Below are positions 7,583 to 53,788 of a stretch of 62,380 nt of DNA, piece after piece. Made by a program: the position numbers and the translations under genes. The DNA is from a virus, in IMG/VR virus record IMGVR_UViG_3300048589_000279, positions 1 through 62,380 of that record, one strand, 5' to 3'. The first letter of the stretch is position 1. The number at the start of each line of letters is the position of its first letter. A model generated the notes under the pieces. It was not told the DNA's origin, did no database searches, and was given only the letters and a program-made list of their open reading frames with translations.

Positions 7583-7589
7583 TCCAGGA

Positions 7590-8198: not shown

Positions 8199-8207
8199 GC
8201 GCGAAGA

Positions 8208-8955: not shown

Positions 8956-8959
8956 TGCG

Positions 8960-14883: not shown

Positions 14884-14941
14884 GGTAAATGGTCTTTCTG
14901 ATTATTGAGATTTGGAGATCAACCGCGGTTCCCGCCGATGC

Positions 14942-15928: not shown

Positions 15929-15961
15929 CGGGGCGGACCTTACGCCCGCGTAACGGCGCAA

Positions 15962-15973
15962 AGAACGGGCGGG
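15962..15973 (-). promoter_or_regulatory. Late motif copy B (CCCGCCCGTTCT)
   Basis: Coding-strand CCCGCCCGTTCT, 33 nt upstream of the scaffold ATG (15928). It is flanked by ACGGGC...GCCCGT, forming a 6-bp inverted repeat. It would provide a promoter for scaffold and coat separate from the lysis cassette upstream. Confidence 0.6.
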
Positions 15974-15981
15974 AAAGCCCG

Positions 15982-16533
15982 TCACGCCTCATTGGTCGAG
16001 ATGGCTCCGGCGGCTGTCACCCGGTAGGGCTTGACGGTCTTGGGAATCTGCAAATAGGGCGGGCGCCGGCAGGCAATCATCCGGTTTTTGGCGATCCGGG
16101 TGATGCAAACCTGATTGGACTGGTTCCCGCCGAGAACATGGAAAGAGGTGGCATCCTCCGCGACGTAGAATCCGACATGGCCGCCGCCGCCGGGACGCTC
16201 GAAAACAAGGATGTCGCCCAAGGACGGTTCCGGCGACTTGGTGCCATACTTCGACCAGTTCCGCGCCCAGAGCGGGTCTTTCACCACTTCGGCTGGGTTC
16301 TTGACGCGACGGTAACAGAGGATTGCGGCGAAGAGTCCGCACCACGGGATGTCGTCGTCGGAGTATCCGCTGATTTTTACGCCGGCCAGATTCAACTCGT
16401 CACGCCATTCCATGATTGTCCGGTTGCTGCCCTTTCCAACAACCTCCTTCACTCCATATTCAGAGAGGCCGAAACGGATGACATTCGGGAGGCCACGGAG
16501 TTTCGTCAGCCATTGGTATTGGGTAGGAATCAT
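15982..16533 (-). CDS. Endolysin, NlpC/P60-CHAP-like (TIGR02594 type)
   Basis: A 183-aa peptidoglycan hydrolase. DIPWCGLF places the nucleophile at C65; GDILVFERPGGGGHVGFYVA gives the catalytic His at 119; and the block GGNQSNQVCITRIAKNR is typical of the TIGR02594 endolysin group. There is no signal peptide, so release depends on a holin. Start ATG 16533 overlaps the lipoprotein stop. It is the last gene of a fully coupled lysis cassette. Confidence 0.88.
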   Translation of the reverse strand: MIPTQYQWLTKLRGLPNVIRFGLSEYGVKEVVGKGSNRTIMEWRDELNLAGVKISGYSDDDIPWCGLFAAILCYRRVKNPAEVVKDPLWARNWSKYGTKSPEPSLGDILVFERPGGGGHVGFYVAEDATSFHVLGGNQSNQVCITRIAKNRMIACRRPPYLQIPKTVKPYRVTAAGAISTNEA

Positions 16534-39200: not shown

Positions 39201-42200
39201 CCGCACTCAATGCGGTGGCGATGACCGGGAGATGGTCGATGGCTTCCACCGGGGCGGTGCCATCCATGATGATGTTCTCCCGCATCCAGAGGTCGTAATC
39301 CGCCGGCGGCATCGCGGCCACCTTCGCAGGATCGGTGGTGTCAACCACTTCGACCTGTTCGGGCGTGAGTGCTCCAGGAATGTCCTCGGGTGTTACTCGT
39401 CCATCTCGTCCCGGAGGCTTTCCAGCGTCGTCCCTTCCGGCAGGTGCTCCCGGATCATTTCCAGAAACTCCGGATCGTCCTGGTTGGCCTTGATCTCGTC
39501 CCGGCACATTTTGCGATGGATCTTTACCCAATCCTTCGGCATCTCGGCGGGCTTGCTGCTCTGCGGTGTAAGCGTCGTGTTGTTCATTGTTGCGTGCGTG
39601 GAAGGTCGATTGTGCGAAATCGACGGTTTTCTGATCGGTGGACTTGAGAGCCTTCTTGAGCCATGCGGAATACCATTTCTGATTCTTGGCTCCGTTTACC
39701 ATGGCGCGAGCATCACGGGCGCTTTCAGCATCACCTCTTGCGGCAGCCTGGTCCATGAAGTTTTGAAACTGCTGCTCACTGGTGAACCGTGCCGGGGGTT
39801 TTGGTCCGCGTTGCTTGCCTGCTCCGCTCGGACCGGGTGGCGGCGGGGGCGCGGTTGCGCGTCCGGCGGCGGGCCCCGGGCGTGGTCCTGTCGATGATCC
39901 CGCGGTAGGTCCGGGGCGCGGGCCACGTCCTGCGGTCGGGCCTGGGGTTGGTCCTGCTCCCGGCGCGGGTCCAGTGCTCGGTCCAGGTGTCGGGCCTGGT
40001 GCTGGTCCCGCGGTCGGGCCTCCACCAGTCGGCGGCGGTGCACCTGGTCCAGGTGGCGGACTTCCCGGCGGCGGTGGCGGCGGGCCTCCCGGTGCGGTGG
40101 TTCCGGCCATGCTTGGCGCGGCCGGCGTCCCCTTGAGAGCTTCCTTCGCCTTGTTGATGCCTTTTCCGGCGAGTTTCACACCTCCCACGCTTCCACCCAT
40201 CAGCGCCACGATCGCCAGCGTTTGCGGGCCGACTTCTTTCACTGACTTCTTGATGCCTCCAAGGCTCCAATCGGATTCGATCTGGTCGGGGTCCGCGCCT
40301 TGAAGAATCGCCTCGGCTTTCGCCTGTCCGGCTTTCTGCTGGATGTTGGTCGCCGTCTCGCCCGCGACTTCCACACCGGCGGCGCCGATCGCCGCACCCA
40401 TCTTGAGTGCGAGCTTCTTCATGGCGTCCTTGCTGAACTTCTTCACCGTCGAAGATCCGAAGACGAACTTGCCGGCACCCATCATCACGGCGTTGCCGAC
40501 TGCTTCCGGTCCAGCTTCCCAGAGACCGGTGTCCTGGGCAATCGGCAGAAGGATCGCGTAGGCTTCCGCCTTCTCGGCTTCATTCATCGGGCGGCCCTTG
40601 GTCCGCATCGCTTCTGCCTCGAAGTCCTTCCAAGTGTCTCGCATGAAGGATTGGCCTGCCATCCGGTATGCGGCATAGCCTGACGCCGCGGCTCCTGCCA
40701 ATTCTTCCCCTGCGGTGCGACCAACGGCTGAACCGGCAGCAGTTCCTTTCGGTCCAAACACGGAACCCACTACGGATCCCGTCGCTGCACCAGCAGGACC
40801 GGTGACGTATTTGCCCACTGTGTATTTCCCCGTCACATAGGCCGCCAACGTCACCAAAGAGAAAGGCAGTGAGGGTCCGGCTTCCCGAAATGACTCACCC
40901 ACCGACGAACTTTCGCCGGCGGCCTGGTTGATGGCGGTTTTACGCTCCATCTCCTGTTGGTATGCGTCCGCCTGTGCATAGCTCCGTTCCTCGGCGGGCG
41001 TGTATTGGTCCGGGCGTTTCGGTCCCGCCCATGCCGAACGGAATCGGGTCGGTGTGGTTTTCAGACCGGTCACTGCATCCACGATGGCGGAAACCGTGTC
41101 CGCCACGTCGAAGAATTCCTTCTCGGGGATCGGAATGACCTTGGCCTGCATCTTTTCCACCAAGGTTTCATCCATCCCAGGCTTCCATTCGTTCTCGTCC
41201 GCCCACTCGCGGAAGAACTGCGCCTTCACCTCGTTCTTCTCGAACTGGTTCTTCGCGGTGTTCCATTGGTGCTTGGTGTCCGCGTCCGATTTCGAAAGCC
41301 ATTGGCCGAATGCCTGCGGCGTGCTCGGATCGGGAACCGCCATCGAAACTTTGTAGATGCCTTTCAGGAGGGACTCACCGGCCTGGACGGAAAGCGTTCC
41401 GTCACGAACCTTCTTGGCGATGTCGTCCGGTGTCGCCTGTAACATCCGCATGCGGTTGCGGAACATGTCGTCGTCCGGTGACGCTTGGCCGGCCTGGAAG
41501 ACGCTGGCGACGTATTGGGCTTCCGCCACCGTGTCACGCTGGCCATCCGCGTCCCTGAGATAGATCGGTGCGCCGGTGGTGGCCGTGAAGTCCACCGCGC
41601 GGCGGAGTTCCCCACCCTTGTCGTATCCAACCGTGATGAACGGCAGTCCGTTCTTGTCTGTGGCGATCAGCCCGACGTTGCCGTTCTTGCCCTTGATGAA
41701 CGTAAATCCATCGCCGGAGATGCCCACCGTGAGGCTGTCCGCATCCTTGATGCCAACGAAGGCGTTGCGGAATGCTTCCACCTTGGCCGGATCGTCCTGC
41801 GGGATCAGCGGGCGCGCGGCACTGCTGGGCGGACCCATCTCACCGTCTCTGGCTTGGGCGGCATCGAGCACCTCGGGCGCATAGACCAGGGGATAGGATG
41901 CCGCGGCTTCCTGCTCGGGGTTGAGAGTTCCGGTTTCCGCGGCAGCCATGGTGTCGGCGGCGCCGCCATCTTCTTCCGGCAGTCCTTGTTCGTGCCGGGT
42001 GCGATCGACTGTCAGCTTGTAGCCGTCCATCGTCGCCTGGGTGTCCGCCGCGTTGAGTGCTTCCTGCTGCGGCCGCAACTCGTCATACTTTTTCCGGGCC
42101 GTGACGTAGCGGGACTTCGCAGCTTCCAGGGCTTTTCCGTGGGTGGCTACTTCCAATTCCGTCGCCTCGGATTCCGTGCCCGTCTCCTTGTTGCGTTTGA

Positions 42201-43092
42201 CCCATTGGACGATCGGCGTTCCTCCCTTGGTCAGCGGGGCGAACGTCTTGCGTTCGAACGTGAATCCCTTGTATTTCTCGCCGGTGTTGAACGCCTTGTA
42301 TTCCCGGGAGGCTTCCTTGAACTCCTGATCCACGGCATGCCACCTAGGCGCGAACGTGAGCTTTTGCTGATCGATCTGCGCCTTGCGCATCATCACCTCC
42401 TGGCCGCGCATCTTGAACTCCTCCGTCTTTTTCAGGTCGGTGACTACCTTCTTGTCCTCGCCAAGCGGCACCCGGTCATAAAGGCCGGTGACTTCGTTCT
42501 TCACCCGGGAGTAAATCTCGCCGGTTTGCGGATCGGTCTTGGTCGGCAACGGTTGCACCGACTCCTGGCCGCGGTCGTTGCGATACTTCTGCATCATCGC
42601 GTCTGGCTCTTTGGGTGCCAGTTCTCCCTCCTTCAACATCGTCGGGAAATCATGCAGCTTGCCCACCTGGCCTTGCACCAGTTGCGGGGATCCGATCGGA
42701 CCGGCATCGTATTTCAGGCTGCCGTCCGGGTGGCGAACCACGTCCGTCTTCCCGCTTTCCACGTCCACCGCGGTCTTCACGCCGGCGGCCGCGGCTTCCC
42801 GCACTGCGCGGCGCCGATCGGCTTCCGCAATGGCGGCCTGGCGCTTCTGCTCGCGTTCCTGCTCCTTGGCCATCGCCTCGGCTTCGCGTTCCTGATCCTC
42901 CGCGTTGCGCTGGTTCTGCTCCAACTGGTCGTCAATCATCCGCTGCCCGACTCGCTGCGCCCGCCAGTTGCTCGATGAACGGGCCAGAGTTTGCGCCCTC
43001 GGGTTCACCCCGGCGGTTCCCTGCCTCACTTTGTCGAGGTAGGATTGAACCTCGTCTTCCTGCGGACTCTTCCAGTTCTTGCGCGGTGCCAT
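24298..43092 (-). CDS. Giant polyvalent virion protein (6,264 aa)
   Basis: One uninterrupted frame taking up 30% of the genome. Recognisable parts in order: coiled coil (1-120); Gly-rich hydrophobic segments (about 744-800 and 947-970); Pro/Gly-rich linker (about 995-1100); ParB-like domain with GGHR (about 1435-1530); zincin HEVGH (near 1627); a PPFYSQL...IEEIQSD module (2806-3270); zinc knuckle CEWCG (near 3560); N6-adenine methyltransferase with NPPF (4390-4640, NPPF near 4551); GNAT acetyltransferase (about 4726-4816); LuxR-like HTH (about 5120-5150); second zincin HELGH (near 5263); and a C-terminal LPD38-like region (about 5730-6150). This matches the phage polyvalent proteins described by Iyer and colleagues, thought to be packaged and injected for early counter-defence. 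The late motif lies 32 nt upstream. Confidence 0.88.
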   Translation of the reverse strand: MAPRKNWKSPQEDEVQSYLDKVRQGTAGVNPRAQTLARSSSNWRAQRVGQRMIDDQLEQNQRNAEDQEREAEAMAKEQEREQKRQAAIAEADRRRAVREAAAAGVKTAVDVESGKTDVVRHPDGSLKYDAGPIGSPQLVQGQVGKLHDFPTMLKEGELAPKEPDAMMQKYRNDRGQESVQPLPTKTDPQTGEIYSRVKNEVTGLYDRVPLGEDKKVVTDLKKTEEFKMRGQEVMMRKAQIDQQKLTFAPRWHAVDQEFKEASREYKAFNTGEKYKGFTFERKTFAPLTKGGTPIVQWVKRNKETGTESEATELEVATHGKALEAAKSRYVTARKKYDELRPQQEALNAADTQATMDGYKLTVDRTRHEQGLPEEDGGAADTMAAAETGTLNPEQEAAASYPLVYAPEVLDAAQARDGEMGPPSSAARPLIPQDDPAKVEAFRNAFVGIKDADSLTVGISGDGFTFIKGKNGNVGLIATDKNGLPFITVGYDKGGELRRAVDFTATTGAPIYLRDADGQRDTVAEAQYVASVFQAGQASPDDDMFRNRMRMLQATPDDIAKKVRDGTLSVQAGESLLKGIYKVSMAVPDPSTPQAFGQWLSKSDADTKHQWNTAKNQFEKNEVKAQFFREWADENEWKPGMDETLVEKMQAKVIPIPEKEFFDVADTVSAIVDAVTGLKTTPTRFRSAWAGPKRPDQYTPAEERSYAQADAYQQEMERKTAINQAAGESSSVGESFREAGPSLPFSLVTLAAYVTGKYTVGKYVTGPAGAATGSVVGSVFGPKGTAAGSAVGRTAGEELAGAAASGYAAYRMAGQSFMRDTWKDFEAEAMRTKGRPMNEAEKAEAYAILLPIAQDTGLWEAGPEAVGNAVMMGAGKFVFGSSTVKKFSKDAMKKLALKMGAAIGAAGVEVAGETATNIQQKAGQAKAEAILQGADPDQIESDWSLGGIKKSVKEVGPQTLAIVALMGGSVGGVKLAGKGINKAKEALKGTPAAPSMAGTTAPGGPPPPPPGSPPPGPGAPPPTGGGPTAGPAPGPTPGPSTGPAPGAGPTPGPTAGRGPRPGPTAGSSTGPRPGPAAGRATAPPPPPGPSGAGKQRGPKPPARFTSEQQFQNFMDQAAARGDAESARDARAMVNGAKNQKWYSAWLKKALKSTDQKTVDFAQSTFHARNNEQHDAYTAEQQARRDAEGLGKDPSQNVPGRDQGQPGRSGVSGNDPGAPAGRDDAGKPPGRDGRVTPEDIPGALTPEQVEVVDTTDPAKVAAMPPADYDLWMRENIIMDGTAPVEAIDHLPVIATALSAARDRGDTATAAILEARLAQSEKPIDPSNPDARRFNKSLTKIRARFGLTAAPAAPSSQETAPQSNEPYPQGREETRPPAQDPQSPPAETGAPGQPVRDGTGQGGTVAPGGGAPAPEEVAKPQQITAKQARLMLKPSEKEGGVDPRTRIKDGKEYVAETLPLSAITANMEGERYDSTVRDPLFRQYAERGGEFPPILVTSKPNDQGTFSVLDGGHRVSAARLRGDQSIRVIREKPTAPTGQSAPEVEKPAKPPTADKAPNPVKVAKAVQAAVESTVARLKGKVKVADGKQASGGAWMSLDGTLTISPKDIAREIKVNGWDEAKAIEVLTDLAISHEVGHFAQVELKRQEWEAIEGKKPPFAVWFNQFNAGQYAEMGGEGSGVDQAAAAIYDPTPGSPQWQALSPGQKGAEIFRMALNAKLNGETNELVREMARKGWTDAFKNMIQAAINYLKSILKDLPPSAKKHLDELEAFYKEITGKGDTKPETKPKEPAAKPETLGDIAETKPETKDRTGEKVSFTHLGTKDTGTVTDAAPDAKGRLMVRSDSLGTLLRKSPDELSPASKAAAQSKPEEASAPDAGENTPKTLNAASLNPEWLKTHRDEWIAMYAKELPYEEDYRLVDLGNGEFNIKQKLGSQWITPYSPTKDIRTLLLRGGMAETLKRAEMARIDFSSKPSQPAGEKPSPKKSRVTDTPARREAFRLLRSGDLATIDKIMGGRIQAPPTGMLKIIKGRMEEGRATQAQRELWDKWEKAGFNAYLPKTAFGTDFNGKVAQELHGMLFSQYNENTDLDDWAGLLGDKVTNDEAMIAVMAELDQVAKGKISKENDPRNPNRERTDAEIQAEEFKRANDFDFGTEEIKAGDLVEGSTITIDGEEFQVQSVEKGGQVVLQDGARFGRQVLDSGDVVYVEQPDEFEPIISTIVDAAIARGYDSVDELKEADPETYAQLLEQYGPEPEGDLGDGPAGEVPSGREAPEGGAGRGQDAAPRGNEVGGWQTRNSNLADDYKAAVQELAPLEKALQEAAAAADVSLPPGFKTIPYNEGGNDWVALQDDMGNDIRFPLTPSEASDEAWKLYDEQSGGMNVASRYRAYNNLKADPRLAELRQARDSALEAWNANGKHPLTDQFNQERSDREAAEQKQRETTAKARRTREAKKAAPAGQPVSVQDIDSAINRREQDILFVKKGQYHTPGLRPGDQEGSGRFAYMVEKGDATVAEWDKWVEQIRKENRFSDPGAPVITPEGKAAAAPGKEPNAAPAPSKGMSVEESKAYLEQRQKENILGYSPDEIMAMQQGQRVNRPVSKMDVRNTNAKELFADDGGFNLTGDKTTDGDKVAAARKAKEEAQAAMDAAQGDMFAARDSKPAETVLTQEEQDLKELEGLFSSASRSRDSGMDDLFGDNQKPTEEIKALKIQGTKSAFGAYKTLTAKRNAGKTLTAEEEQTLLEAETALGQKMAFDMAAENLAAKDKPLVEQALKEAVKPAPVLNPKITQQSLFMGEPENRGGQGSLFSSASRENPPFYSQLSRTLEAKMPKSAPVGQVLAIAKGGSKAEEFKWSGIEQAAQSLAKDGKVDKAELLEWLANEGAVRFEEVTLDPPVNNQRWSDLLDKRDAGKLTKLEAEELKRLSDQGGHPDSKFSQYTLPGGENYREVVLAMPVQTERFKNDLLRRKFKETLEADEVANYHDIAEADFLSLPKEKQFQLWKDAFGDVAIEMDALYESPERNDSYTSSHFPDVPNYVAHMRLNERDGGLFIEEIQSDRHQAGRKSGYVESATQTEGELPPGYAIREAESGLHALYHQSHGFESFVGSFRDRNQAVQKAFSDVNSSKVADAPFRTTWPLALFKRALRDAVASGKDWIGWTVGETQNDRFDLGRQVDSLNYGGSVEDGWTIQGIKDGEIITETDSTDAKLEDTVGKDVAARIRQGVGSIGNGMGSLEGVDLKVGGSGMKGFYDTMLPKEIGKYVKQWGGVVQLSKIGKPKEGTGKLTREELSQARQDAKRLIRGDMDLEEFHDEWGQTSLTYDDIPGNDPGRLSQFVTQIVDVLRAKRENDAGGIFPAWVIQITPSMKAGVEAGQALFSSASPDPNAQYSLPIKPTGLPKLMPILQSVIEKGEVKTPEDMAKFLEPIGLQPISQAVWGILEAMQGRAAEKVDWAKLYAPATDNQSLTVQPAAPVEQETPAAITQAEAAAKITKEQAKAIIAESESLKDRPIRTYEQAVAANQIHMGTRIPEWEALPFNGQTDPESGKPLQDISGLRDMKHAPTLFPTGSVIGNCEWCGKQPVKNFYHIKHGGKNWTMLVGSECISHFADITGEQMGAEARENSAKATLQSIEDARRDLAKEFRNTVDVGYGRTEQKWSSYESEDIYKALKEAAGKTTGESGRAALSRWLGGNLEAAQKALADYSDLMSKPETAKRKITRREALIRKLELDLTRPSAAKEPQYRLDQWQRLIDEAKSEIAAIKGETPAETPPVEKPEAAKPAPTRKALEEGLRQARAEQAKNPSEDKAAAIREAESLLAMADQVRKDRESAKPSEQPSDLESKPSDLAPKKSTVEPITDLLSLRKFFTNIQDGDVTADQIKAGWETFKAIEPAIHKEIAKMTMKELERFQGMRKPDNKADAVRSAMHALEGQFNPGSMLSYGGSVLSASKPGAMENSRRAAMDKAVATWTDEIIQKQAQERRDAKAARSKALENPETLDEWKQFVNRKGVTGLTGEEVAAFKAIKSDYARHDAIMARGESRLTPEQLAAYDNVRGIDRKAQEQAQAERKATVRGVKADTDTEIIETKHTKTGVPLFVVKLADRVEREVYNSLNAAAKKLGGYYSSYRVGGAVPGFQFKDRATAEQFQAITKGETVDRTEAVQERRAEKKNAAAERLSAAADRMDQAADTSLNRDRRENTPKRAKEAVHAEAAARGVKAMAETMRNLANAIESGEATHLDGVSTKTHVETLQSLSESAKRDAMRAEGLSYGEEQTRAELAPTLEQMDKAEWPYPFMDHSSMLEMVERGRTTPGAKLLAERVAKIRLYDPKKNGNGGYLTHESDIENVRELAKKTRDWKGKPVWDGIKWKFESHERLHAMGIWDIAQLRASLREFLQFRGNKTKADPIKAMERDLIGKNIPGFFPTPQTVIEDMLDIAGDLSGKHVLEPSGGKADIADAAKAAGAIVDVAETQSTLRDIISAKGHLLIGRDFMDMDPKTRGFTYGDIYMERATGKKGILRGLGEMGSERVRLEKEDGEVIGYFNLSELQGFEKRGAASGYDVVLMNPPFEDGQDMEHVQHAYDFLKPGGKLVAIMSESPFFSSTKKAQAFRDWLEAQGGTSEKLPEGSFKSAFRSTGVNTRMVVIEKPATTLQASASWPRNLYDYTYRTEANKGDVQHIVRAYNERTGMKEDRTFDTYAEAKEEMERLDDLAKPALFSSSSNYEDTMKPFRDKWEARGVENYVSENARTGNITLHQIKVPKSDRGQGLGSEFMQELTDYADSKNAAIVLSPSIDFGASSVNRLKDFYKRFGFVENKGRNKDYRISETMIRRPKSGGLFSSASPAEDARYLELAKLEEESRRDPLETPRRNHMIQAGLFDEVLDSVRQGREPKLRIGDYTEGKGSTYSEWKDNTYEDEQTYKFRITDHDRQLSSITNHKRPDFTISDGRSDVSESNGDWIDAIDWLQGRADNFTAPERIQKIIDRRGKIAELKRQVNDQNRAEESKKTNYSQIGQATQEGAAIYKKAMDLAAELQSSMGTGKYSSEERKKMNKRKIAMFNRIEEIGKSEASKNDRLYSSASMPSQDAKYLELAKDPESDSILFSSASRASDLPGDDHPVWASLPPEMRGVFRDYAAGKSMPEIAKARKLSDRAVFNIVTQMKARFAKNGVPDPTPPVSGTRPAGAAPKPASKAPETKDAGAARGGAATRMPVSPDPIGNIKKGISAPKVIKTMQGVLESIGHGVPIRVGNLKGRNSLGEYYTREHLARIKIANDIPTAAHELGHALQKGLFGNAATAFRTAGVPANAIAEMEAVGRALYGATVPTGGYVSEGFGEWFSVLVYGGNTESRAAAPRFHDWFKAQVEAVNPKLAKSIAKAQAASLTWRNQGDLERARQSVYRRPGRIVELGQKLASLDYMNDWVDTNAPIDRFVAEAIEKGRRAIPARENPALAATALRMTSTARAEFMVKSAMIDFAGNPLPGDDGRSLTEILARVRGKKTDFLIYMWAKRAVAMWNDPNGARNPGLSENDAIGIIAKIETPIFEQTAAAVSRWNDLVLDYAAAASEDYRATVQRIRAVDPGFYIPLFREFEAFDAAAKGGSSSVASGKLLDRLRGSGRRIKDPFSGMISQAADIVARAHQKRVLDQIFKIAENVPDMGNLVAEISPKMVPAAQRALGELIEEINRKLFKAGIDEIELTPEQEAMMQEIATFFAPSYDVKNGERPILAVFRGGRMRLYDVDPGLYETLSGMNAYRLAPLIDMTIGLTNRTFRIGTTGLRASFSLVTNPLRDFSTLHFNSRASANTAELFLTWMGELSKAFIYSVTGGAVRPKTIEVLERLGGKMATPLGQDMRPTERASRRLFEKTGWKIVDVRNWADYLRDLLQFPELASRATEMKLVGKDLGWKPGDAMDEETSLLLLQALKQVTTDFTAAGRYGRVANQLVPFFNAGIQGPRAHVRAFKNSYVRFISRGLGHAIVALIAWWFAKDSDWWKEMSTKMKFGFTFIPFEHNGKKELIRIPRAFEADGLFMSGTVALADAWYQEDPKQATEWMQEWFKRMIPSAMPAVADTVTEQLANRKFFFDMPIVPRGMEEMAREEQIGPYTSQVAAKLGQMTGMSPLRIDHAINGTFGGAGTDFVQLFGKPEEINRERELVDLPVLGTLFVRGGQSTMNSVSVDNLYDALDESTKLQKSRRRQENPSQRQARLMLEDAQKAIVAISKITKMEFTTNNRRELEELKTSIAREAVAAFRAERIERGRFETIRKNAERELEAREKAPKP
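27811..35076 (-). repeat. Seven LFSSAS-type junction motifs in the giant protein
   Basis: The hexapeptide LFSSAS (variants LFSSSS, LYSSAS) occurs at residues 2673, 2800, 3368, 4704, 4825, 5063 and 5089 (DNA 35059-35076, 34678-34695, 32974-32991, 28966-28983, 28603-28620, 27889-27906, 27811-27828). Codons differ between copies, so the repeat is kept at protein level. Copies fall between modules, for example just before PPFYSQL and on both sides of the GNAT domain. Two are followed by a DA[RK]YLELAK segment. Confidence 0.85.
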
Positions 43093-47322: not shown

Positions 47323-47382
47323 GGTGGTTATAACTCCTTGTTCCACCAAAGAGGGATCGGACCTCTCCGGTGGTGTTTCGCG

Positions 47383-47781
47383 TCAGTCGAGGTTCAGCGA
47401 TTGTTTCGCCACGGATCGCCACGCATCGGCCTGCTTTTGCTTGTTCGGATCGGCGGCGAAGTCTGCCCACGCGGGGAGCGGATCGCCGTTGAACGCGACG
47501 CCACCAACGGCTTCGCAATAGACCGAGTAGAGCAGATCGGCGTGTTCATCGAGGTTGGGCTGTTCTTTCGAGGTTTGGATGAGCGCCAGCAGCGCGTCGC
47601 CAATCGGTTCGCCGTAGCCCCATGAGCCAGGCGATCCCATCGCTCTCTCGACAGGGATTCCCTCAATCACCGATCCCAAGACGCTGATGAGCGCGGTGGT
47701 GTGATGATCCAGTTCAGGGTTGTTTTCGGCGGCGTGGTTGACGATGGCGTTGCGGAGGTCTCGTTGTTGTTGTGTTATCAT
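47383..47781 (-). CDS. Hypothetical protein (132 aa)
   Basis: Start at ATG 47781 (MITQQQRDLRNAIVNHAAEN). The leader CCCCAAACCAAACGAAAT-ATG is almost the same as that of the gene starting at 52082. Soluble helical protein, acidic, with no recognised domain. It lies immediately outside the left edge of the attC-like cassette array. Confidence 0.6.
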   Translation of the reverse strand: MITQQQRDLRNAIVNHAAENNPELDHHTTALISVLGSVIEGIPVERAMGSPGSWGYGEPIGDALLALIQTSKEQPNLDEHADLLYSVYCEAVGGVAFNGDPLPAWADFAADPNKQKQADAWRSVAKQSLNLD

Positions 47782-47814
47782 ATTTCGTTTGGTTTGGGGT
47801 GATTCGGAAGAGGT

Positions 47815-47907
47815 GGAACAAGACGCCGATCCCAACAGAGATGGCGTCCGAGTTCATTTAGGTAGCGGAGTCTTGCCCGCCATCTCTGTGGGATGGCTCA
47901 GCGTTCT
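47815..47907 (+). repeat. attC-like site 1
   Basis: Outer boxes GGAAC (47815-47819) and GTTC (47903-47906). The inner arm 47829-47846 pairs with 47878-47894 over 17 bp with one unpaired A at 47835. The stop codon of the methyltransferase gene (47858) lies in the loop. The preceding block ATTCGGAAGAGG is shared with site 3. Confidence 0.75.
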
Positions 47908-48607
47908 GTGTATGAAATGGGAGCACGTCCTGCGCGAGACGAGCGGCGGCGATTTCGCAATAGCGTTCCTCCCGCTCAATCAGCACGGCACGCTTCCCGA
48001 GATTCTTCGCGGCGTGTCCTGTGGTGCCAGATCCCGCCCATGGGTCGAGGATGGTTTCCACGTTCCCCGCTTGCTGAATGCACCATTGCATCAGCCCCAG
48101 CGGCTTTTGCGTCGGATGCTGTGGGTTGCTGTCTGAGCGGCAGCGATGGTGCTTCGCTGGTCCTGGGATATTCGTGAAGGCGATTTCCGCGCTGCTTCGC
48201 GTTTCCAAGTGCTCCACATGCGGCTTTTGCCACATCAGGAACTTTTTGTGAGGCGGCAGCAGATTGCACAGGTAGTTCATCCCCCAGATGATTTGCAGGT
48301 TGGCCTTTTCCATTGCGGCGGCAATGGCTTCCCCGTCGATTTTTTCATCATCCCAGTTCCCTTTTCTTGCCATGCCGTATCGGCGCGTCGTCCTTGATCC
48401 GTCGAGTGCATTCATGCCATACGGAGGGTCGGTGAGCAGCAGGTCGAAGCGTTCCAGCATCGGCATGATTTCCCGACAGTCGCCGTGATAGATCGTCACG
48501 TATTCGTCGCGGTAGAACGGCACCGGCAACACAGAACAAGGCATCGCACCCAATGACTGCCCGGCGGCAGTTTGGGGCGAGGATGGAGCGTCAGGGCGGG
48601 CAGTCAT
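47858..48607 (-). CDS. DNA methyltransferase (DPPY type, N6-adenine or N4-cytosine)
   Basis: A 249-aa amino-methyltransferase. Motif IV TDPPYG is at 59-64. The AdoMet-binding motif DPWAGSGTTGHAA lies near the C-terminus, giving the beta order (IV before I) common in phage and restriction enzymes. HPTQKPLGLMQW precedes it. The first 28 residues are Ala/Ser/Pro-rich, encoded by half of attC-like site 2, and do not belong to the fold. Start ATG 48607 overlaps the HNH stop. It would methylate phage DNA, probably against host restriction. Confidence 0.88.
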   Translation of the reverse strand: MTARPDAPSSPQTAAGQSLGAMPCSVLPVPFYRDEYVTIYHGDCREIMPMLERFDLLLTDPPYGMNALDGSRTTRRYGMARKGNWDDEKIDGEAIAAAMEKANLQIIWGMNYLCNLLPPHKKFLMWQKPHVEHLETRSSAEIAFTNIPGPAKHHRCRSDSNPQHPTQKPLGLMQWCIQQAGNVETILDPWAGSGTTGHAAKNLGKRAVLIEREERYCEIAAARLAQDVLPFHTQNAEPSHRDGGQDSAT

Positions 48608-48625
48608 GGGTGGATTTTGTCGTTC
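48534..48625 (+). repeat. attC-like site 2
   Basis: Outer boxes GAAC (48534-48537) and GTTC (48622-48625). The arm CACCCA(A)TGACTGCCCG at 48547-48563 pairs over 16 bp with 48597-48612; only A48553 is unpaired. The methyltransferase start (48607) and the HNH stop (48604) lie in the right arm. Confidence 0.8.
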
Positions 48626-48936
48626 ATCCAAAAATCCTGTTGCCCACTGGCCGCGTGGATTCGCTCCTTGCGGCGGCGTTGGCGATCTTTCGCGTCGTGC
48701 CGGTTGTGGCAGCGTTGGCATAGTGCGGCGAGGTTTAGGAGATTCGACGCTTCGGGGCGGTCATCGAAGACATGCGCCACCGTCAGCACCACTTTCGATC
48801 CTGTCACCGGATGCGGCTGGTAGTTCTCGCATCCGCACCACTCGCAATGATTCTTGGCGCGGTAGAAGCGCACGAAGCGACTCCGAAGTTTCCAGTCTTT
48901 CGGGTATCGGTGTTTATTTTCTGCGAGGATCGGCAT
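48604..48936 (-). CDS. HNH endonuclease (110 aa)
   Basis: Compact HNH protein: CEWCGCENY (first Cys pair), VLTVAHVFDDRPEASNLLNL (core His and Asn) and LCQRCHNRHD (second Cys pair and His). Length is typical of small phage HNH enzymes. It may be a nicking or mobility nuclease. It occupies one cassette of the attC-like array. Start ATG 48936 (MPILAENKHRYPKDWKLRSR). Confidence 0.88.
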   Translation of the reverse strand: MPILAENKHRYPKDWKLRSRFVRFYRAKNHCEWCGCENYQPHPVTGSKVVLTVAHVFDDRPEASNLLNLAALCQRCHNRHDAKDRQRRRKERIHAASGQQDFWMNDKIHP

Positions 48937-48958
48937 CGGAGGTAATTCGGAAGAGGAT

Positions 48959-49042
48959 GAACAAGGCGTGAGATGCGACGGCTATAAGCCGTCTTGTTGA
49001 GGCGGAGCGCAGCGATGCCGCGCATCCACATCGGCGTTCGGC
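48959..49042 (+). repeat. attC-like site 3
   Basis: Outer boxes GAAC (48959-48962) and GTTCGGC (49036-49042). The inner arm GTG(A)GATGCG (48968-48977) pairs with CGCATCCAC (49021-49029), nine pairs with A48971 unpaired. A GACGGC/GCCGTC hairpin sits in the apical region. The zinc-ribbon stop (48982) lies inside. Confidence 0.8.
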
Positions 49043-49308
49043 TGACGAATGCGGAGATACCATGTCTCAGGTGTCCAGACGTGTCCGCAGTCGGTGCAAC
49101 GGTCCATGTGCTGGAACTCGGCTCCTGCCCGTTCGCGCCCGTGTTTCCCGCATTCGGGGCAGTGTCTTCCGGCTGGCCACCAGTCAATGATCCAGCCCGA
49201 TTCGGCAGTGATCTTTTCCGTGATCGACGCAAGCCGAACAAGACGCAGCACAGAACCGCTGACCGCGGCGTTGTCCTGCGTGCTAGCAATGTCTGATTCC
49301 GCTGTCAT
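48982..49308 (-). CDS. Zinc-ribbon protein (108 aa)
   Basis: C-terminal half carries CPECGKHGRE ... CTDCGHVW, a classical zinc ribbon. Residues 1-28 (MTAESDIASTQDNAAVSGSV) are encoded by attC-like site 4. Zinc-ribbon proteins of this size in phages are sometimes Lar-like restriction alleviators, but no such motif can be claimed here. Start overlaps the upstream stop (ATGA). Confidence 0.65.
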   Translation of the reverse strand: MTAESDIASTQDNAAVSGSVLRLVRLASITEKITAESGWIIDWWPAGRHCPECGKHGRERAGAEFQHMDRCTDCGHVWTPETWYLRIRQPNADVDARHRCAPPQQDGL

Positions 49309-49332
49309 CGGTCCGTGTGCTCTGCGTTCGGC
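49233..49332 (+). repeat. attC-like site 4
   Basis: Outer boxes GCCGAAC (49233-49239) and GTTCGGC (49326-49332) are perfect 7-bp complements. Inner AGCACA (49247-49252) pairs with TGTGCT (49316-49321), and ACC/GGT continues after mismatches. It contains both the start of the zinc-ribbon gene (49308) and the stop of the next gene (49305). Confidence 0.75.
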
Positions 49333-49724
49333 TCAAAGAATCCGCAGTCCTTTCCGCTATCCAACCAGATTGGCTGGCGCTCTTCGCGGAGCATCACGCA
49401 GGCGGGGGCTTTCCATTCCGGCAGTGGGTGCAGGCAGCGGCCCGAGACAGACGGGCGTGGGAGTCCGTTGAAGTCGGCGTGCTTGCAGTCGCCACAGGTG
49501 CCGCAGACGCGGGGAGATTCATCGTTCCTCCAGATGAGCTTGGCGAGAGCGTCGCACAATTCCCCGGTGTCTTTTGTGTCGAGATAGGCGACTTGACCGT
49601 TTGAGTGATGGATCGCCAGCCCAGCCGCCTCGTTGATGAAGTTGGCGCTCAGTGGCGTAGTGGGCAAAGCCGAACAAGACGTGGCTGCGGCAACCGGCGT
49701 TTCGCTTTCCAATTTCTTACTCAT
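49305..49724 (-). CDS. Cys-rich hypothetical protein (139 aa)
   Basis: Start at ATG 49724 (MSKKLESETPVAAATSCSAL). The C-terminal half holds eight cysteines (VCGTCGDCKHADF, GRCLHP, DCGFFEP), probably zinc sites, with the CKH-x-Cys-x2-FF pattern seen in small phage proteins. The N-terminal 30 residues derive from attC-like site 5. The start overlaps the Dam-type gene stop by eight bases. Confidence 0.65.
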   Translation of the reverse strand: MSKKLESETPVAAATSCSALPTTPLSANFINEAAGLAIHHSNGQVAYLDTKDTGELCDALAKLIWRNDESPRVCGTCGDCKHADFNGLPRPSVSGRCLHPLPEWKAPACVMLREERQPIWLDSGKDCGFFEPNAEHTDR

Positions 49725-49768
49725 GATCGTTCCTTTCGCTGCCGGTGGCAGCACTTGTTTCGTTCGGG
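49669..49768 (+). repeat. attC-like site 5
   Basis: Outer boxes GCCGAAC (49669-49675) and GTTCGG (49762-49767). Inner GCTGC (49684-49688) pairs with GCAGC (49748-49752), and ACCGGC (49693-49698) with GCCGGT (49741-49746), with an asymmetric bulge between. Contains the Cys-rich gene start (49724) and the Dam-type stop (49717). Confidence 0.7.
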
Positions 49769-50328
49769 GGACAAAGTTTCACGCCCTCCAACGGGCATTT
49801 CAGAAGCGTTTCCTTGGCGCGGTCGCCATAGCCGATCAGCACGCTGGGAGAGGTTGCGCACGATCCGCCGCCCGTCCGCTGGAACTTTCCGCCCCGCGTG
49901 TCGTGGAAGCGGACGCGCCCCGATAGGAAGAGCATGGCGGCAGCGGTCTTGCTGACGGACTGAAACCACTTGGTATCCGAGCGAGCGAACACAAGCGCGA
50001 TGCCGTCGCCGTGGAGCGCAAGTCGCTCCATCCATTCCGCGATTTGCGAGCCGTAGGGCGGATTTAGCCACACATGCCCGGACCATTCGCGGGTGAGTCC
50101 ATCGTCCAGCACCGTGAAGCCCCTAGCGGCGGTTTCCCACGGCTGGTGCAGCGACATGCACGGGTCGAGATCGAACGGCCCGAGAGCGTCGAGGATGTGG
50201 CGCGGCGTGATCCAGTCGTGGGTCTGCGCCGTCGTCCGCTCATGCCCGTGGAAGCCGCCCGAACAAGGCAGCGCATGGAACGCCGGGGAAGTCGGTTCTT
50301 GAATCATAGTCTTGGGGTCGGCGTCCAT
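49717..50328 (-). CDS. Dam-type phage N6-adenine methyltransferase (DNA_N-6-adenine-methyltransferase family)
   Basis: A 203-aa protein. DWITPRHILDALGPFDLDPC, HVWLNPPYGSQIAEWMERLA (NPPY motif IV) and GIALVFARSDTKWFQ are the hallmarks of the short phage Dam family (TIGR01712 type). Residues 1-30, including MDADPKTMIQEPTSPAF, come from attC-like site 6. Start at ATG 50328. It would add N6-methyladenine to phage DNA, usually to evade restriction. Confidence 0.88.
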   Translation of the reverse strand: MDADPKTMIQEPTSPAFHALPCSGGFHGHERTTAQTHDWITPRHILDALGPFDLDPCMSLHQPWETAARGFTVLDDGLTREWSGHVWLNPPYGSQIAEWMERLALHGDGIALVFARSDTKWFQSVSKTAAAMLFLSGRVRFHDTRGGKFQRTGGGSCATSPSVLIGYGDRAKETLLKCPLEGVKLCPPNETSAATGSERNDHE

Positions 50329-50342
50329 GGCTTTAGGCGTTC
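50261..50342 (+). repeat. attC-like site 6
   Basis: Outer boxes GAAC (50261-50264) and GTTC (50339-50342). Inner CATGG(A)ACGCCG (50274-50285) pairs perfectly over 11 bp with CGGCGTCCATG (50319-50329); A50279 is the single unpaired base. Contains the Dam-type start (50328) and the neighbouring stop (50333). Confidence 0.8.
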
Positions 50343-50680
50343 TCCTCAATATCCTCCGTGGGCAGAAGTGCCCGCGCATCGCAGGTTATGTCGTGAGCTT
50401 CCACCTTCCAGTCCCGTGGATCGCGGACTTTCAGGTCGCGAATACTCACGACCTCATGGTCGCTGATATCGATCCGGTCGCTGTAATGGTCCCATGAGTC
50501 TTCCCAGTCTTCGACGTGCTTCAGCGCATCTGCTTCGGAGGCGGCGAAGATGACGGCGTTGCGGCGGATCAAGACGCTCACCTCGAAAAGCCGAGGAGAA
50601 CAAGCCGTGTCTGGCGACCCGGCCTCGTCTCTTGTTGGTTCGGAGATTTGGCCCTCCGCTGGCACTGATTGGTTTTGCAT
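50333..50680 (-). CDS. Hypothetical acidic protein (115 aa)
   Basis: The first 30 residues (MQNQSVPAEGQISEPTRDEA) are attC-encoded. The body (VSVLIRRNAVIFAASEADAL ... WDHYSDRIDISDHEVVSI) is a small alpha/beta protein with no recognised family. Start ATG 50680 lies two bases beyond the right box of site 7; the stop lies in site 6. One cassette of the array. Confidence 0.6.
   Translation of the reverse strand: MQNQSVPAEGQISEPTRDEAGSPDTACSPRLFEVSVLIRRNAVIFAASEADALKHVEDWEDSWDHYSDRIDISDHEVVSIRDLKVRDPRDWKVEAHDITCDARALLPTEDIEENA
50598..50678 (+). repeat. attC-like site 7
   Basis: Outer boxes GAAC (50598-50601) and GTTTTGC (50672-50678), the second fitting GTT-N3-C. Inner GTG(T)CTGGCG (50607-50616) pairs with CGCTGGCAC (50657-50665) over nine pairs including two G-T, with T50610 unpaired. 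Confidence 0.7.
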
Positions 50681-50716
50681 AGATTTTAGGTGTTACGCTG
50701 GCCGGATCGCCAGCAC

Positions 50717-51043
50717 TTAGACGTTGTGTGAAGAATATCCTCGAAGTAGTTTCCCCATGGCTTGGGCGATTGTGAGCGAGTCGAGCACGTAGATGGTCCA
50801 CTCTTCGCGCTCCGCCCTCATCCTTTCGCGTCGATATACAGCCTCTTCGCGAATGAATTCGGACGGCAGCGCGGTTGCATACTCGAACTCCATCACTGGG
50901 CGGTCCGCGCACACTTTCCAATATGGCTGACCGGGATCAGGGCGGCGTTGTCCATCGGCAAGCCCTCCGATGAAGAGCACACAACAAAACGTGAGACGCA
51001 ATCCGCTATCAGCGGCATTGTCAGCTTTTGGGGAATCAGACAT
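50717..51043 (-). CDS. Hypothetical protein (108 aa)
   Basis: Start at ATG 51043 (MSDSPKADNAADSGLRLTFC). The attC-derived N-terminus runs into a short hydrophobic stretch (LTFCCVLFIGGLADG), which could be a weak signal or membrane segment, then a charged helical region (REEAVYRRERMRAEREEWTI). No family is recognised. One cassette of the array. Confidence 0.55.
   Translation of the reverse strand: MSDSPKADNAADSGLRLTFCCVLFIGGLADGQRRPDPGQPYWKVCADRPVMEFEYATALPSEFIREEAVYRRERMRAEREEWTIYVLDSLTIAQAMGKLLRGYSSHNV
50982..51024 (+). repeat. attC-like site 8 (degenerate)
   Basis: CAAC (50982-50985) followed by GTGAGACGC as in site 3, then a compact imperfect hairpin GAC..AAT.CCGC/GCGG.ATTGTC (50995-51022). 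A clear right-hand GTTC partner at the expected distance is missing. It still lies at the gene junction, so it is scored as a decayed copy. Confidence 0.45.
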
Positions 51044-51350
51044 CTTCGGGCTTCGTTGGGGTTTTCTCGTCGGCGGATGCGTCCACATCGGCGTTCGGAA
51101 GATCAACCAGCTCCACCTCGACGGTGCGGCATTCCTCTTCGGATTCGGCCATAGAGCAGATTGCTTGCATCGCATGCCACTGATCCACGTCCGTCCATTG
51201 CGCGATTTTCCCGCAGCCGTGGCGTTCTAGGCTGACCCACACGATTTTGCTGCCGGGATAGCAGAATCGGGTTCCAAGCGGAAGATCGAAAAACTTCCGA
51301 ACAAGGCGTGGCTGGAGCAACGCGGCTCCGGTGTGAGTTTGATTTTGCAT
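51036..51350 (-). CDS. Hypothetical protein (104 aa)
   Basis: Starts MQNQTHTGAALLQPRLVRKF, the first half attC-encoded. The body FFDLPLGTRFCYPGSKIVWV ... is a small beta-rich protein, with an acidic tail (ADVDASADEKTPTKPEDV). No family is recognised. MQNQ is shared with the 50680 gene because both starts fall at comparable positions of an attC-like site. Confidence 0.6.
   Translation of the reverse strand: MQNQTHTGAALLQPRLVRKFFDLPLGTRFCYPGSKIVWVSLERHGCGKIAQWTDVDQWHAMQAICSMAESEEECRTVEVELVDLPNADVDASADEKTPTKPEDV
51298..51341 (+). repeat. attC-like site 9 (compact)
   Basis: CGAAC (51298-51302) and GTTTG (51337-51341) as outer boxes. Inner CTGGAGC (51312-51318) pairs with GCTCCGG (51325-51331). 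Only 44 nt long, much shorter than sites 1-7. It marks the right edge of the array. The CAAGGCGTGGCTG block after the box matches sites 3 and 5 in part. Confidence 0.55.
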
Positions 51351-51355
51351 GGTAG

Positions 51356-51592
51356 TTACTGAGTTTTGGGAGTTATCGGCGTAGCGCTCTCGCCGCGTGC
51401 CAGCACATCGACGTCCGCGGGAATCAGGCTGACCAGGAACTTCCCGCGGGTCATTTCTCCGCGGAGCGAGTCCACGGCCTCCAGCTTGTCAGGCAGCAGG
51501 GAACAGGTGACGACGGTTGCAGTGCGACCGGTGCTCGGTTTGACTCCGGCTCCGGGGCGTTTCCCCCCGCGGGTGGTCTTGGGCTTAGTCAT
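51356..51592 (-). CDS. Small basic protein, possible ribbon-helix-helix regulator (78 aa)
   Basis: Start at ATG 51592 (MTKPKTTRGGKRPGAGVKPS). The GGKRPGAG N-terminus and the following VVTCSLLPDKLEAVDSLRGE pattern resemble small phage DNA-binding proteins with an RHH-like fold. No operator is visible. It is the first gene to the right of the cassette array. The ATG overlaps the previous stop by eight bases. Confidence 0.55.
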   Translation of the reverse strand: MTKPKTTRGGKRPGAGVKPSTGRTATVVTCSLLPDKLEAVDSLRGEMTRGKFLVSLIPADVDVLARGESATPITPKTQ

Positions 51593-51885: not shown

Positions 51886-52082
51886 CGGAGGAGTAGTTTG
51901 GCGAAGAGCCAGGCGAATGCCGGGGCCATGACGATTGCCGCGGCAACGATGCCCATCGGGGTAATGCGGGGGTTCCTTGCCGGTTGTGGGGCCGGGTAGG
52001 CCAGCGATGCTAGGCGGATGTCGTTGAGGATCTGCCGGCGTGATTTCCGGGCTTGCCGGATGTCGAATGGGTCTTGGTTCAT
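51882..52082 (-). CDS. Small tail-anchored membrane protein (66 aa)
   Basis: Starts MNQDPFDIRQARKSRRQILN, a basic helical cytoplasmic part followed by a C-terminal hydrophobic helix (MGIVAAAIVMAPAFAWLFAK). The leader CCCCAAACCAAACGAAT-ATG is nearly identical to that of the 47781 gene. It is coupled to the tiny membrane peptide downstream. Confidence 0.55.
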   Translation of the reverse strand: MNQDPFDIRQARKSRRQILNDIRLASLAYPAPQPARNPRITPMGIVAAAIVMAPAFAWLFAKLLLR

Positions 52083-52105
52083 ATTCGTTTGGTTTGGGGT
52101 GAGGG

Positions 52106-52830: not shown

Positions 52831-53180
52831 TGGTCTGTTTCTGGTTTGGGGATTCCGGCCCGCATCTTGGCGAGCATCGGGATTACAACCGTCTCGTAGA
52901 GGTATTCACGACAGGCGGCAACGTGGCGACATTCTACACGCCCGGTCAATGGGTAGGGAATGAACGTGCCGTGACGCTTCCAGTTCGGATTTGCTCGGCA
53001 TGAAAAGTCATGGCAGGAACAGCTTCCGAGTCCTCCCCGGTCGGTCATATCGACCAAATACCATCCAATGTCGGCGGATCTGGATTCCACACGGTAGCGG
53101 AAAGCCGCTCCGACATCCTCGCTGACGTTGGGCATCTCCATCATTGCCCGTTGCTCCTTGGCTTTGGCTTCTTGGGTCAT
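52827..53180 (-). CDS. SWIM zinc-finger-like protein (117 aa)
   Basis: Start at ATG 53180 (MTQEAKAKEQRAMMEMPNVS), overlapping the Mom-like gene stop. GSCSCHDFSCRANPNWKRHG followed by RVECRHVAACREYL gives the C-x-C-xn-C-x-H arrangement of SWIM domains, which bind DNA or protein. No catalytic domain is attached. In the coupled early operon next to the DNA-modification gene. Confidence 0.65.
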   Translation of the reverse strand: MTQEAKAKEQRAMMEMPNVSEDVGAAFRYRVESRSADIGWYLVDMTDRGGLGSCSCHDFSCRANPNWKRHGTFIPYPLTGRVECRHVAACREYLYETVVIPMLAKMRAGIPKPETDQ

Positions 53181-53788
53181 GGCTTCGTTTTTCGTTGTTT
53201 TAGCGGGTAGTGGAAGCGCCACTTGGAAACACGGGGGATTCGTGTAACGTCGGCATCGGGGGGCATGTTCCCTTTGCGCCCATACTTCTTGCCCGTGCGG
53301 GCGTCCACGTAGTCGCAGCGCGGGCTTTTCCGCTCGTCGTCGGTCATCCCGTCATGCCGCCAGTTCGCGGCCTTGTAGATCGTCCCGGCGTGTCCTGCGG
53401 ACGGGTCCGCGTAGCTCAAAAGGTGTTCAACGTCCCGGTGCGTCCGTTGGATGTAGCGGATGCTTTGGCCGATCAACCACGTTTCCGCGTTGCGGGGGAT
53501 TTCGTCCAGTAGGTAAAGGCGGGCGAGTTCCCATGTCTTGCCGCCATACCGCTTGTCAGCTTCCCGTGGCGGGGCTGAGTAGATGATGCACCCCACCGGT
53601 TCGCCATTGGTTAGCATCATCAGGCACAGGAGCACTATTGCGGGACGTTTCCCAAGGTAATGACGGCAAATGAAGTCGTCTACGTTGGCGACGGAGCACG
53701 GCTGAATTTTGGAAATAGACCGCCACGATGAATCAAACTTCTCGGAAGTTGGTAATTCGGCAGAGAGTCCGGGAAGGTTTCCGTTCAT
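53177..53788 (-). CDS. Mom-like DNA modification acyltransferase
   Basis: A 203-aa protein; start at ATG 53788 (MNGNLPGLSAELPTSEKFDS) in an ATGA overlap. VDDFICRHYLGKRPAIVLLC, MMLTNGEPVGCIIYSAPP, ELARLYLLDE and LLSYADPSAGHAGTIYKAAN follow the pattern of the GNAT-fold Mom family. In phage Mu, Mom modifies adenines in DNA and so blocks many restriction enzymes. Here it would join several methyltransferases in protecting phage DNA. Assignment is by pattern. Confidence 0.75.
   Translation of the reverse strand: MNGNLPGLSAELPTSEKFDSSWRSISKIQPCSVANVDDFICRHYLGKRPAIVLLCLMMLTNGEPVGCIIYSAPPREADKRYGGKTWELARLYLLDEIPRNAETWLIGQSIRYIQRTHRDVEHLLSYADPSAGHAGTIYKAANWRHDGMTDDERKSPRCDYVDARTGKKYGRKGNMPPDADVTRIPRVSKWRFHYPLKQRKTKP

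Follow-up and report, generated by a model that had tools for sequence, protein, structure and literature searches.

An integron-type gene-cassette array in a tailed-phage genome, with genes antiparallel to attC and probable mobilisation in trans

Introduction

Phage-borne integrons and CALINs are already known from TJE1, P12002L, PH101 and Shewanella M16-3, and five of six tested phage attC sites were recombined by IntI1 (Qi et al. 2023, PMC9892861, here and below as far as the available part of that paper goes). Like the locus described here, those phages hold attC arrays in their genomes, some with methyltransferase cassettes and some with intI. Their arrays are mostly parallel (TJE1, PH101), in one case with divergent attCs (P12002L), or captured from host integrons; the part available describes no antiparallel arrays, no phage-specific IntI lineages and no natural shuffling of cassettes from one near-identical phage to another (PMC9892861).

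Three other systems are close enough to compare. The sedentary chromosomal integrons of planctomycetes (Zavarzinella, Gemmataceae, Fimbriiglobus), in which IntI is present, have attCs of the same geometry as ours and of the same GCCGAACAAGRCG...GCGTTCGGC sequence family; unlike in our locus, their genes are parallel to attC, the stop codon precedes attC and the R boxes are nearly uniform. Class 1 integrons likewise differ from the phage arrays in having genes parallel to attC, and their integrase clade is distinct. Finally, the virus Rctr41k (KX853513) combines an IntI-like gene (annotated xerD) with five attC-like sites, but its genes are parallel to attC and its attCs belong to a different family, with an 8-nt spacer.

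Results

The array and its attC sites

The window analysed here is a viral contig of 62,380 nucleotides (IMG/VR record IMGVR_UViG_3300048589_000279). Nine attC-type hairpin sites, all on the plus strand, span 47813-51419, within 3.6 kb; they include every one of the nine palindromic junctions listed by the first-pass annotation. The array comprises nine cassettes with nine attC sites, and a further small array lies at 6.7-7.5 kb:

47340-47902, no strand: first cassette, with an unknown gene at 47383-47781 on the minus strand; runs from the junction TATAACTCCTTG^TTCCACC up to attC 1
47813-47909, plus: attC site 1, R'' GTGGAAC, R' GTTCTGT (geometry 12/12 pairs; boxes)
47858-48607, minus: cassette gene, N4/N6 DNA methyltransferase (PF01555, phrog_67), candidate start codons 48607 to 48523
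48531-48628, plus: attC site 2 (geometry 12/12; covariance model E 7.5e-7)
48604-48936, minus: cassette gene, HNH endonuclease (phrog_1571)
48956-49042, plus: attC site 3 (geometry 10/12; E 2.1e-5)
48982-49308, minus: cassette gene, small Cys-rich protein, weak zinc-ribbon match
49233-49332, plus: attC site 4 (geometry 10/12; E 2.2e-8)
49305-49724, minus: cassette gene, Cys-rich protein of unknown function
49669-49768, plus: attC site 5 (E 1.9e-5)
49717-50328, minus: cassette gene, Dam-type DNA N6-adenine methyltransferase (PF05869, phrog_111)
50258-50345, plus: attC site 6 (geometry 11/12; E 3.1e-5)
50333-50680, minus: cassette gene, unknown function
50595-50729, plus: attC site 7, R'' GGAGAAC, R' GTTGTGT (sequence and closure boxes; no covariance-model match)
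50717-51040, minus: cassette gene, unknown function
50979-51099, plus: attC site 8 (geometry 11/12; boxes)
51036-51350, minus: cassette gene, unknown function
51296-51419, plus: attC site 9, the last of the array, degenerate R' (sequence; R'' fits R' of site 8)
6665-6762, minus: attC site 10, in the other operon (geometry 11/12; E 9.6e-6)
6686-7459, plus: cassette gene, PAPS-reductase-like (phrog_424; weak in Pfam), antiparallel to attC 10
7525-7578, minus: short attC-like site (covariance model 16.4 bits, E 0.039; weak)

The array sites share a layout of AAC, 9 nt, a 6-bp arm, an unpaired A, an inner arm, loop, arms, 8-9 nt and GTT. Both strands of all 62 kb were scanned for geometry alone (AAC, 8-10 nt, 6+6 bp arms, 7-10 nt, GTT), with one extra base of any identity on the 5' arm. 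At a cut-off of at least 11/12 pairs this gave just five matches: sites 1, 2, 6 and 8, and the tenth site (6758-6669, minus strand). All five have the bulge A and spacers of 9 and 8-9 nt, neither being demanded by the scan. Relaxation to 10/12 pairs added sites 3 and 4; by inspection, sites 5 and 9 contain an extra 2-nt bulge, and the arms of site 7 pair with no net bulge. For sites 1, 2, 3 and 6 the arm pairing proposed earlier was essentially right, at 17, 16, about 10 and 11 bp with one unpaired A. The shared GAACAAGRCG block is exact at five sites (47816, 48959, 49236, 49672 and 51299) with 1-2 mismatches at the others. R' of site 9 (GTCCGCG) departs from the pattern, with GTCC instead of GTT.

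A covariance model trained solely on planctomycete (Zavarzinella/Gemmata-type) attCs, which also recovered the class 1 attC (aadA-type), found sites 4, 2, 5, 3 and 6 and the tenth site (E 2.2e-8 to 3.1e-5), always on the predicted strand. It did not report sites 1, 7, 8 and 9, and an Rfam search of the sites returned no family match. An attC site is expected to fold with an unpaired base in one of its arms while the arm sequence varies, and the scan and the model together bear this out; the array also fits the CALIN definition of at least two close attC sites in the same orientation. The geometry scan found no sites of this strict geometry in TJE1 and P12002L; since their attCs misfit it, these phages neither help nor hurt as positive controls. 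A pattern search of bacterial genomes gave mainly chance matches in those of high GC content, and the geometry scan eliminated them.

Closure of the R boxes

Complementarity between R'' and the preceding R' is the mark of circular cassette insertion. Here, in all eight intervals, R'' of site n+1 and R' of site n are exact reverse complements over 7/7 nt, and R'' closes with that box rather than with the R' of its own site; closure this complete was reached in 9 of 200,000 permutations. A circular intermediate requires R'' to pair with the beginning of the cassette it belongs to, and the array complies (8/8 intervals, 7/7 nt). At the left end, GTTCCAC at 47340 is the reverse complement of attC 1 R'' (GTGGAAC), and in the second array R' of the short, weakly supported site (GTTCGTC at 7531) matches R'' of site 10.

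Gene content and polarity

The two DNA methyltransferases and the HNH nuclease named by the first-pass annotation are present, but its zinc ribbons came down to a weak match. Its labels "early operon" and "counter-defence" derive from the neighbours and from gene content (here methyltransferases), and are inferred, not shown. That annotation overlooked the antiparallel genes, the stop and start codons inside the attCs and the IntI-family integrases beside related arrays.

In the window, 14 of 14 flanking genes are antiparallel to attC, so that the reading direction of the cassette genes is that of the phage operon. Across viral loci with 97 attCs, 151 flanking genes were antiparallel and 9 parallel, versus 4 antiparallel and 46 parallel in the bacterial arrays sampled. 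Orientation was taken from codon-usage-scored gene calling, a first pass with longest ORFs having given mixed orientation in high-GC contigs. The locus thus departs from the classical cassette arrangement (gene parallel to attC, stop before attC); within each attC the gene upstream has its stop codon, and in most cases the following gene also starts there.

Integrases and attI

No intI was found in the window, although the contig may be incomplete, and it does not qualify as a complete integron; a 27-aa IntI match at 8798-8878 was rejected as an integrase, as it looks like a non-IntI tyrosine recombinase relic opposite a gene. Related contigs do contain intI (G013, G016, L209-L212, L223-L230), with the IntI-family proteins adjoining antiparallel arrays. 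For two of these integrases TIGR02249 was by far the best family (194 and 251 bits, below the curated cut-off of 265); the best PDB chain was 2A3V (V. cholerae IntI), the alignment running through the insertion. They satisfy the definition of IntI by family match, including the IntI-specific insertion, and by catalytic residues. The phage IntIs align with IntI1 over the full length (31-37% relation within the alignment set) and group apart from the host IntIs compared. Among contigs found by their integrase, we excluded L217-L220 and L222 as copies of the class 1 IntI1, and L215, L216 and L221 had no attC of the array geometry.

The related phages share a conserved attI, roughly TATAATTMACT^GTT, which the junction at the left end of the window array, TATAACTCCTTG^TT, matches poorly. 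A decayed attI or a secondary site may lie left of the first cassette; its identity as attI is not established.

These data bear on whether the whole array was captured from a bacterial chromosomal integron. Such capture is known for Vibrio phages (PMC9892861, in the part available), and the attC sequences of the window resemble planctomycete and verrucomicrobial ones. We nevertheless find this origin very unlikely: the sampled bacterial arrays are parallel and the phage arrays antiparallel, the cassettes carry phage-type genes and recur among phages, and the phage integrases stand apart from those of the hosts compared.

Cassette exchange between related viruses

Exact cassette breakpoints are seen in related contigs. 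From the G^TT core onwards, the methyltransferase cassette of the window (from 47903) matches the first cassette at attI of the integrase-encoding phage L228: 40 nt are identical from G^TT and 92.2% over 651 bp, with unrelated sequence upstream of G^TT. L229, near-identical to L228 and the same phage, has a different cassette at that position, and between the two a cassette has moved with junctions at G^TT. L016/L020 differ by the exact presence or absence of a cassette, L014/L019 have an exact cassette in common, and L005 has an insertion with attCs where the window has none. Gain, loss or movement at G^TT is thus documented at both boundaries in L228/L229, L016/L020 and L014/L019, and at the left boundary in window/L228. 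Cassettes of related viruses include Mom-like and PAPS-reductase-like genes. Contigs L183-L195, related through the methyltransferase at 54.9-56.1 kb, had no attC arrays in the stretches examined, save one isolated weak match in L188.

Two checks proposed with the first-pass annotation were thus passed: in related phages such sites enclose other genes, and arm sequences vary with pairing kept, as in the one cassette common to the window and L228, whose attC arms differ. Together with the geometry scan and the covariance model, whose strong matches removed a further possible refutation, the exchange supports its interpretation as an attC array.

Variable gene content could also come from the usual mosaicism of phages, through homologous or illegitimate recombination where gene-boundary sequences are conserved: phage genomes are generally mosaic, and L138/L124, in which the left boundary falls within a gene and outside attC, was rejected as a clean cassette swap. 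As the account of this variation mosaicism is highly improbable, given that the G^TT junctions offer few bases of homology but are where several independent pairs have their breakpoints, that window and L228 share 40 identical nt to one side of the junction with unrelated sequence to the other, and that the boxes close. Could the sites instead be hairpins, in RNA or DNA, that serve translational coupling or termination and have no role in recombination? Their location at gene junctions and the start and stop codons inside them would fit, but we reject this scarcely tenable reading because exchange breaks at G^TT; closure with the previous site's R', the IntI beside such arrays and the lack of an Rfam match also oppose it.

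Discussion

We hold with high confidence that this tailed-phage genome carries an array of integron gene cassettes here, although recombination was not assayed. The lack of intI in the window makes it a CALIN-type array, whose recombination probably takes place in trans. By analogy with the enzymology of known integrons, an IntI-type tyrosine recombinase would excise and insert cassettes at the G^TT core of attC; for the window array it would probably be supplied by a co-infecting phage or the host. In related phages a phage-specific IntI is encoded beside the conserved attI; where intI is encoded, cassette genes are co-directional with it, and attI and attC are classical in layout relative to it. 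In the mRNA, each attC lies at a gene junction, and from the stop and usual next start codon inside it we infer that ribosomes probably terminate and reinitiate there. The cargo is rich in DNA methyltransferases, which suggests exchange of restriction-evasion genes.

Alternatively, the array might be a fossil: an ancestor had or met an IntI, and the cassettes are now fixed and inert in this phage. The missing intI, the degenerate R' of site 9 and the 8% divergence of the window cassette from the L228 copy agree with that; on the other hand, decay would erode the 8/8 perfect closure matches, the arms are intact, related phages shuffle cassettes and a probable host MAG encodes IntI. A fossil thus seems unlikely, though it keeps some plausibility.

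Beyond the array itself, we think it fairly likely that these loci represent a dedicated class of phage integron, in which phage-specific IntI and attI serve inverted cassettes forming one phage operon, with attC as translational junction, probably in Verrucomicrobiota-like hosts and with intI-less phages joining in trans. The combination of inverted organisation and phage-specific integrases appears to be new. If the class is real, co-infecting phages would trade DNA-modification and other accessory genes singly.

In classical arrays, attC hairpins hinder translation (review PMC8876359); the antiparallel organisation bears on how such hairpins can become gene junctions. Integrons are known mainly as bacterial devices; in this case phage genomes use that chemistry, with integrases encoded by phages and with natural cassette shuffling visible between near-identical viruses. 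Phages thereby gain a site-specific means, distinct from homologous mosaicism, of exchanging accessory genes (methyltransferases, for example) one at a time, and this may be a route linking viral and bacterial cassette pools.

Site architecture and cassette closure

The window, a tailed-phage contig from IMG/VR (62,380 bases), has matches to a DnaB-like helicase, an Erf annealing protein, an exonuclease and a major head protein. Almost a third of it is taken up by one open reading frame, 6,264 codons long, at 24298-43092 (-). Nine plus-strand sites at 47813-51419 were directly observed to share one layout: the outer box R'' (NNNNAAC), 9 nt, a 6-nt arm, one extra A, an inner arm, a loop, the complementary inner arm, a 6-nt arm, 8-9 nt and the outer box R' (GTTNNNN). 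A geometry-only scan that fixed neither the bulge base nor the exact spacers, run over the entire window on both strands (at least 11 of 12 pairs), gave five matches: four of the nine array sites and a tenth site at 6758-6669 (-), all with the 9-nt first spacer and the bulged A. Elsewhere, the scan recovered arrays in Zavarzinella, Gemmataceae and Fimbriiglobus, with almost no high-GC chance matches reported. The covariance-model check proposed in the first-pass annotation relied on 24 planctomycete attCs only, whose RNAalifold structure has the 9-6-bulge-6 layout of the window sites. This model detected sites 4, 2, 5, 3 and 6 and the tenth site (E 2.2e-8 to 3.1e-5), gave no match for sites 1, 7, 8 and 9, and picked up class 1 integron attCs at similar scores.

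In established integron biology, the R'' of a cassette's attC remains complementary, after integration of the circular form, to the bases with which that cassette begins; these occupy the R' position of the site before it. Such closure was seen directly: in 8/8 intervals of the window, R' of site n, reverse-complemented, equals R'' of site n+1 at 7/7 positions (for example ACAGAAC/GTTCTGT, GATGAAC/GTTCATC, GGAGAAC/GTTCTCC and ACACAAC/GTTGTGT); inside one and the same site, R'' and R' usually match at 4-6 positions only. Box permutations equalled the observed closure in 9 of 200,000 trials. Across 50 viral intervals, the four variable bases were perfectly matched in 34, and none of 10,000 permutations reached the observed match sum; undetected sites probably account for some of the imperfect intervals. 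R'' of site 1 has its partner, GTTCCAC, at 47340, and the gene at 47383-47781 is therefore a ninth cassette. The window hairpins are cassette boundaries and more than hairpins, and the attC design claimed for the nine palindromes from sequence alone is confirmed.

Gene polarity

All 14 flanking genes in the window were observed to be antiparallel to the attCs, that is, on the opposite strand. With a codon-usage gene caller, viral attCs (97 sites in 32 loci chosen as non-redundant, the related phage contigs L228 and L229 both included) had 151 antiparallel versus 9 parallel flanking genes, and contained 68 antiparallel stops and 34 starts, whereas bacterial arrays (42 sites in 8 loci, all planctomycete) had 46 parallel versus 4 antiparallel genes. 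Polarity was not a criterion for the viral loci, which were located through an attC pattern, an integrase or similarity of phage proteins.

In the window, every attC contains the stop codon of the upstream gene, and 7/9 contain an ATG of the next (by inspection); the N-terminal residues of cassette proteins can therefore, judging from sequence, be attC-encoded. The window Dam-type protein matches contigs L180-L182 only through residues 14-55, attC-encoded leader included. C-terminal residues come from the neighbouring cassette: a methyltransferase ending in FRGQNAKSAGTAAHEGKTI in L229 ends in FRGQNA in L228 after the cassette moved. In classical arrays, attC stem-loops hinder ribosomes, an effect that may be eased by a short ORF within the attC (review PMC8876359). 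By analogy, the stop and start codons inside phage attCs could relieve this hindrance, and termination-reinitiation within attC is inferred.

A leader repeated directly upstream of start codons (minus strand ...TCACCCCAAACCAAACGAATATG) was noted at window 47772-47822 and 52079-52102 (plus-strand coordinates) and at L228 3838-3889. Common to unrelated genes and to another phage, it is possibly a conserved translation or promoter element.

Cassette exchange among related phages

Comparison with related phages, also proposed earlier, revealed cassettes that differ or are shared at the recombination core G^TT, with exact breakpoints directly visible. Over 651 bp, the methyltransferase cassette of the window and L228 6895-6245 share 92.2% identity. 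From G^TT at 47903 onward, the first 40 bases agree without a mismatch; upstream of this point the two sequences differ, attC 1 lying there in the window and attI in L228. L228/L230 and L229 represent a single phage (99.4-99.9% over ~7.6-8 kb, a stretch that takes in the integrase gene; other flank 100% over 1,245 bp). The array position of a 753-bp methyltransferase cassette differs between them, its junctions falling at G^TT, and one attI is followed by different first cassettes. A methyltransferase cassette of viral contig L016, exactly G^TT to G^TT, is absent from L020, whose flanks are 99-100% identical. Contigs L014 and L019 have an exact common segment (GTTAGCC...GCGTTA, 763 bp, 94.5%) that carries a Mom-like gene together with its attC; the flanks are otherwise unlike. 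Contig L005, with a helicase 83% identical to that of the window, has a ~650-bp insertion between resolvase-like and helicase genes, with an attC at 2144-2221 whose R' is at the edge of homology and a second attC seen by inspection; the window has no attC at this insertion point. Exchange is inferred from metagenomic assemblies, although chimeric joins are not expected to fall at G^TT.

Viral contigs L138 (1369-2304) and L124/L148, nearly identical (99.9%), differ by a swapped ~0.9-kb segment with an attC and a gene. We rejected it as a clean cassette exchange: its right edge is at an AGAAC core, but its left edge is inside a gene.

Integrases and attI

No intI was found in the window. Among relatives, IntI and attI were observed directly: viral contigs with antiparallel arrays carry intI (G016, 15355-16320; G013, 3450-4463), and a viral-contig scan gave further integrases, with attCs nearby in L209-L212 and L223-L230, except L227. 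For the two integrases of G016 and G013, TIGR02249 gave scores of 194 and 251 bits, both under its curated cut-off of 265 but well in excess of XerD (111 and 106). V. cholerae IntI (2A3V) is the best solved structure for them, the alignment running through the IntI-specific region. In the integrase tree, from a small sample, phage integrases form two groups apart from the sampled bacterial IntIs, L221 excepted. In the attC frame, transcription of intI leads away from the array, which is the classical integron arrangement, and so has the same direction as that of the inverted cassette genes. The first cassette is separated from intI by a conserved attI of roughly TATAATTMACT|GTT.

A short window stretch at 8780-8930 (+), LRHFFASYAIESGIDVPTVARWLGHKDGG, is a C-terminal tyrosine recombinase motif, not IntI-like and partly opposite the gene at 8381-8806 (-); it looks like a decayed phage integrase.

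Qi et al. 2023 (PMC9892861) described phage CALINs (attC arrays without an integrase gene) as well as captured integrons, with methyltransferase cassettes in one case, and reported recombination assays; attC arrays in phages are therefore not new. Neither antiparallel arrays nor phage-dedicated integrases were described in the literature that we searched, which left out most preprints and subscription papers. Unlike the inverted window array, virus Rctr41k (KX853513), at 4680-10097, has an IntI-like gene named xerD and five attC-like sites, all in the classical orientation parallel to the genes; inversion is therefore a property of the window-type attC and phage group, not of every viral integron. 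The Rctr41k element is apparently a complete classical integron, unannotated in the public record.

Proposed mechanism and cargo

By inference from known integrons, the folded bottom strand of attC would be the IntI substrate. The window array is in turn inferred to be served in trans by the IntI of a co-infecting phage or of the host. Two findings bear on the host: the best helicase match among phage records is an Akkermansia phage, and L067, a related, prophage-like contig, belongs to a Verrucomicrobia MAG that also encodes IntI.

A Mom-like DNA modification gene lies outside the array (window 53177-53788 (-)), 70% identical to one on L067 and different from that on the L014/L019 cassette. 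PAPS-reductase-like genes (phrog_424) occur on cassettes in two phages, at window 6686-7459 and at 14437-15291 of G016 (L202), there adjoining intI.

With the function itself untested, the methyltransferase and Mom-like genes suggest restriction evasion as the cargo role. The array stands, more strongly than first annotated, as true integron cassettes of inverted design in a phage, within a phage set of which some members encode their own IntI.
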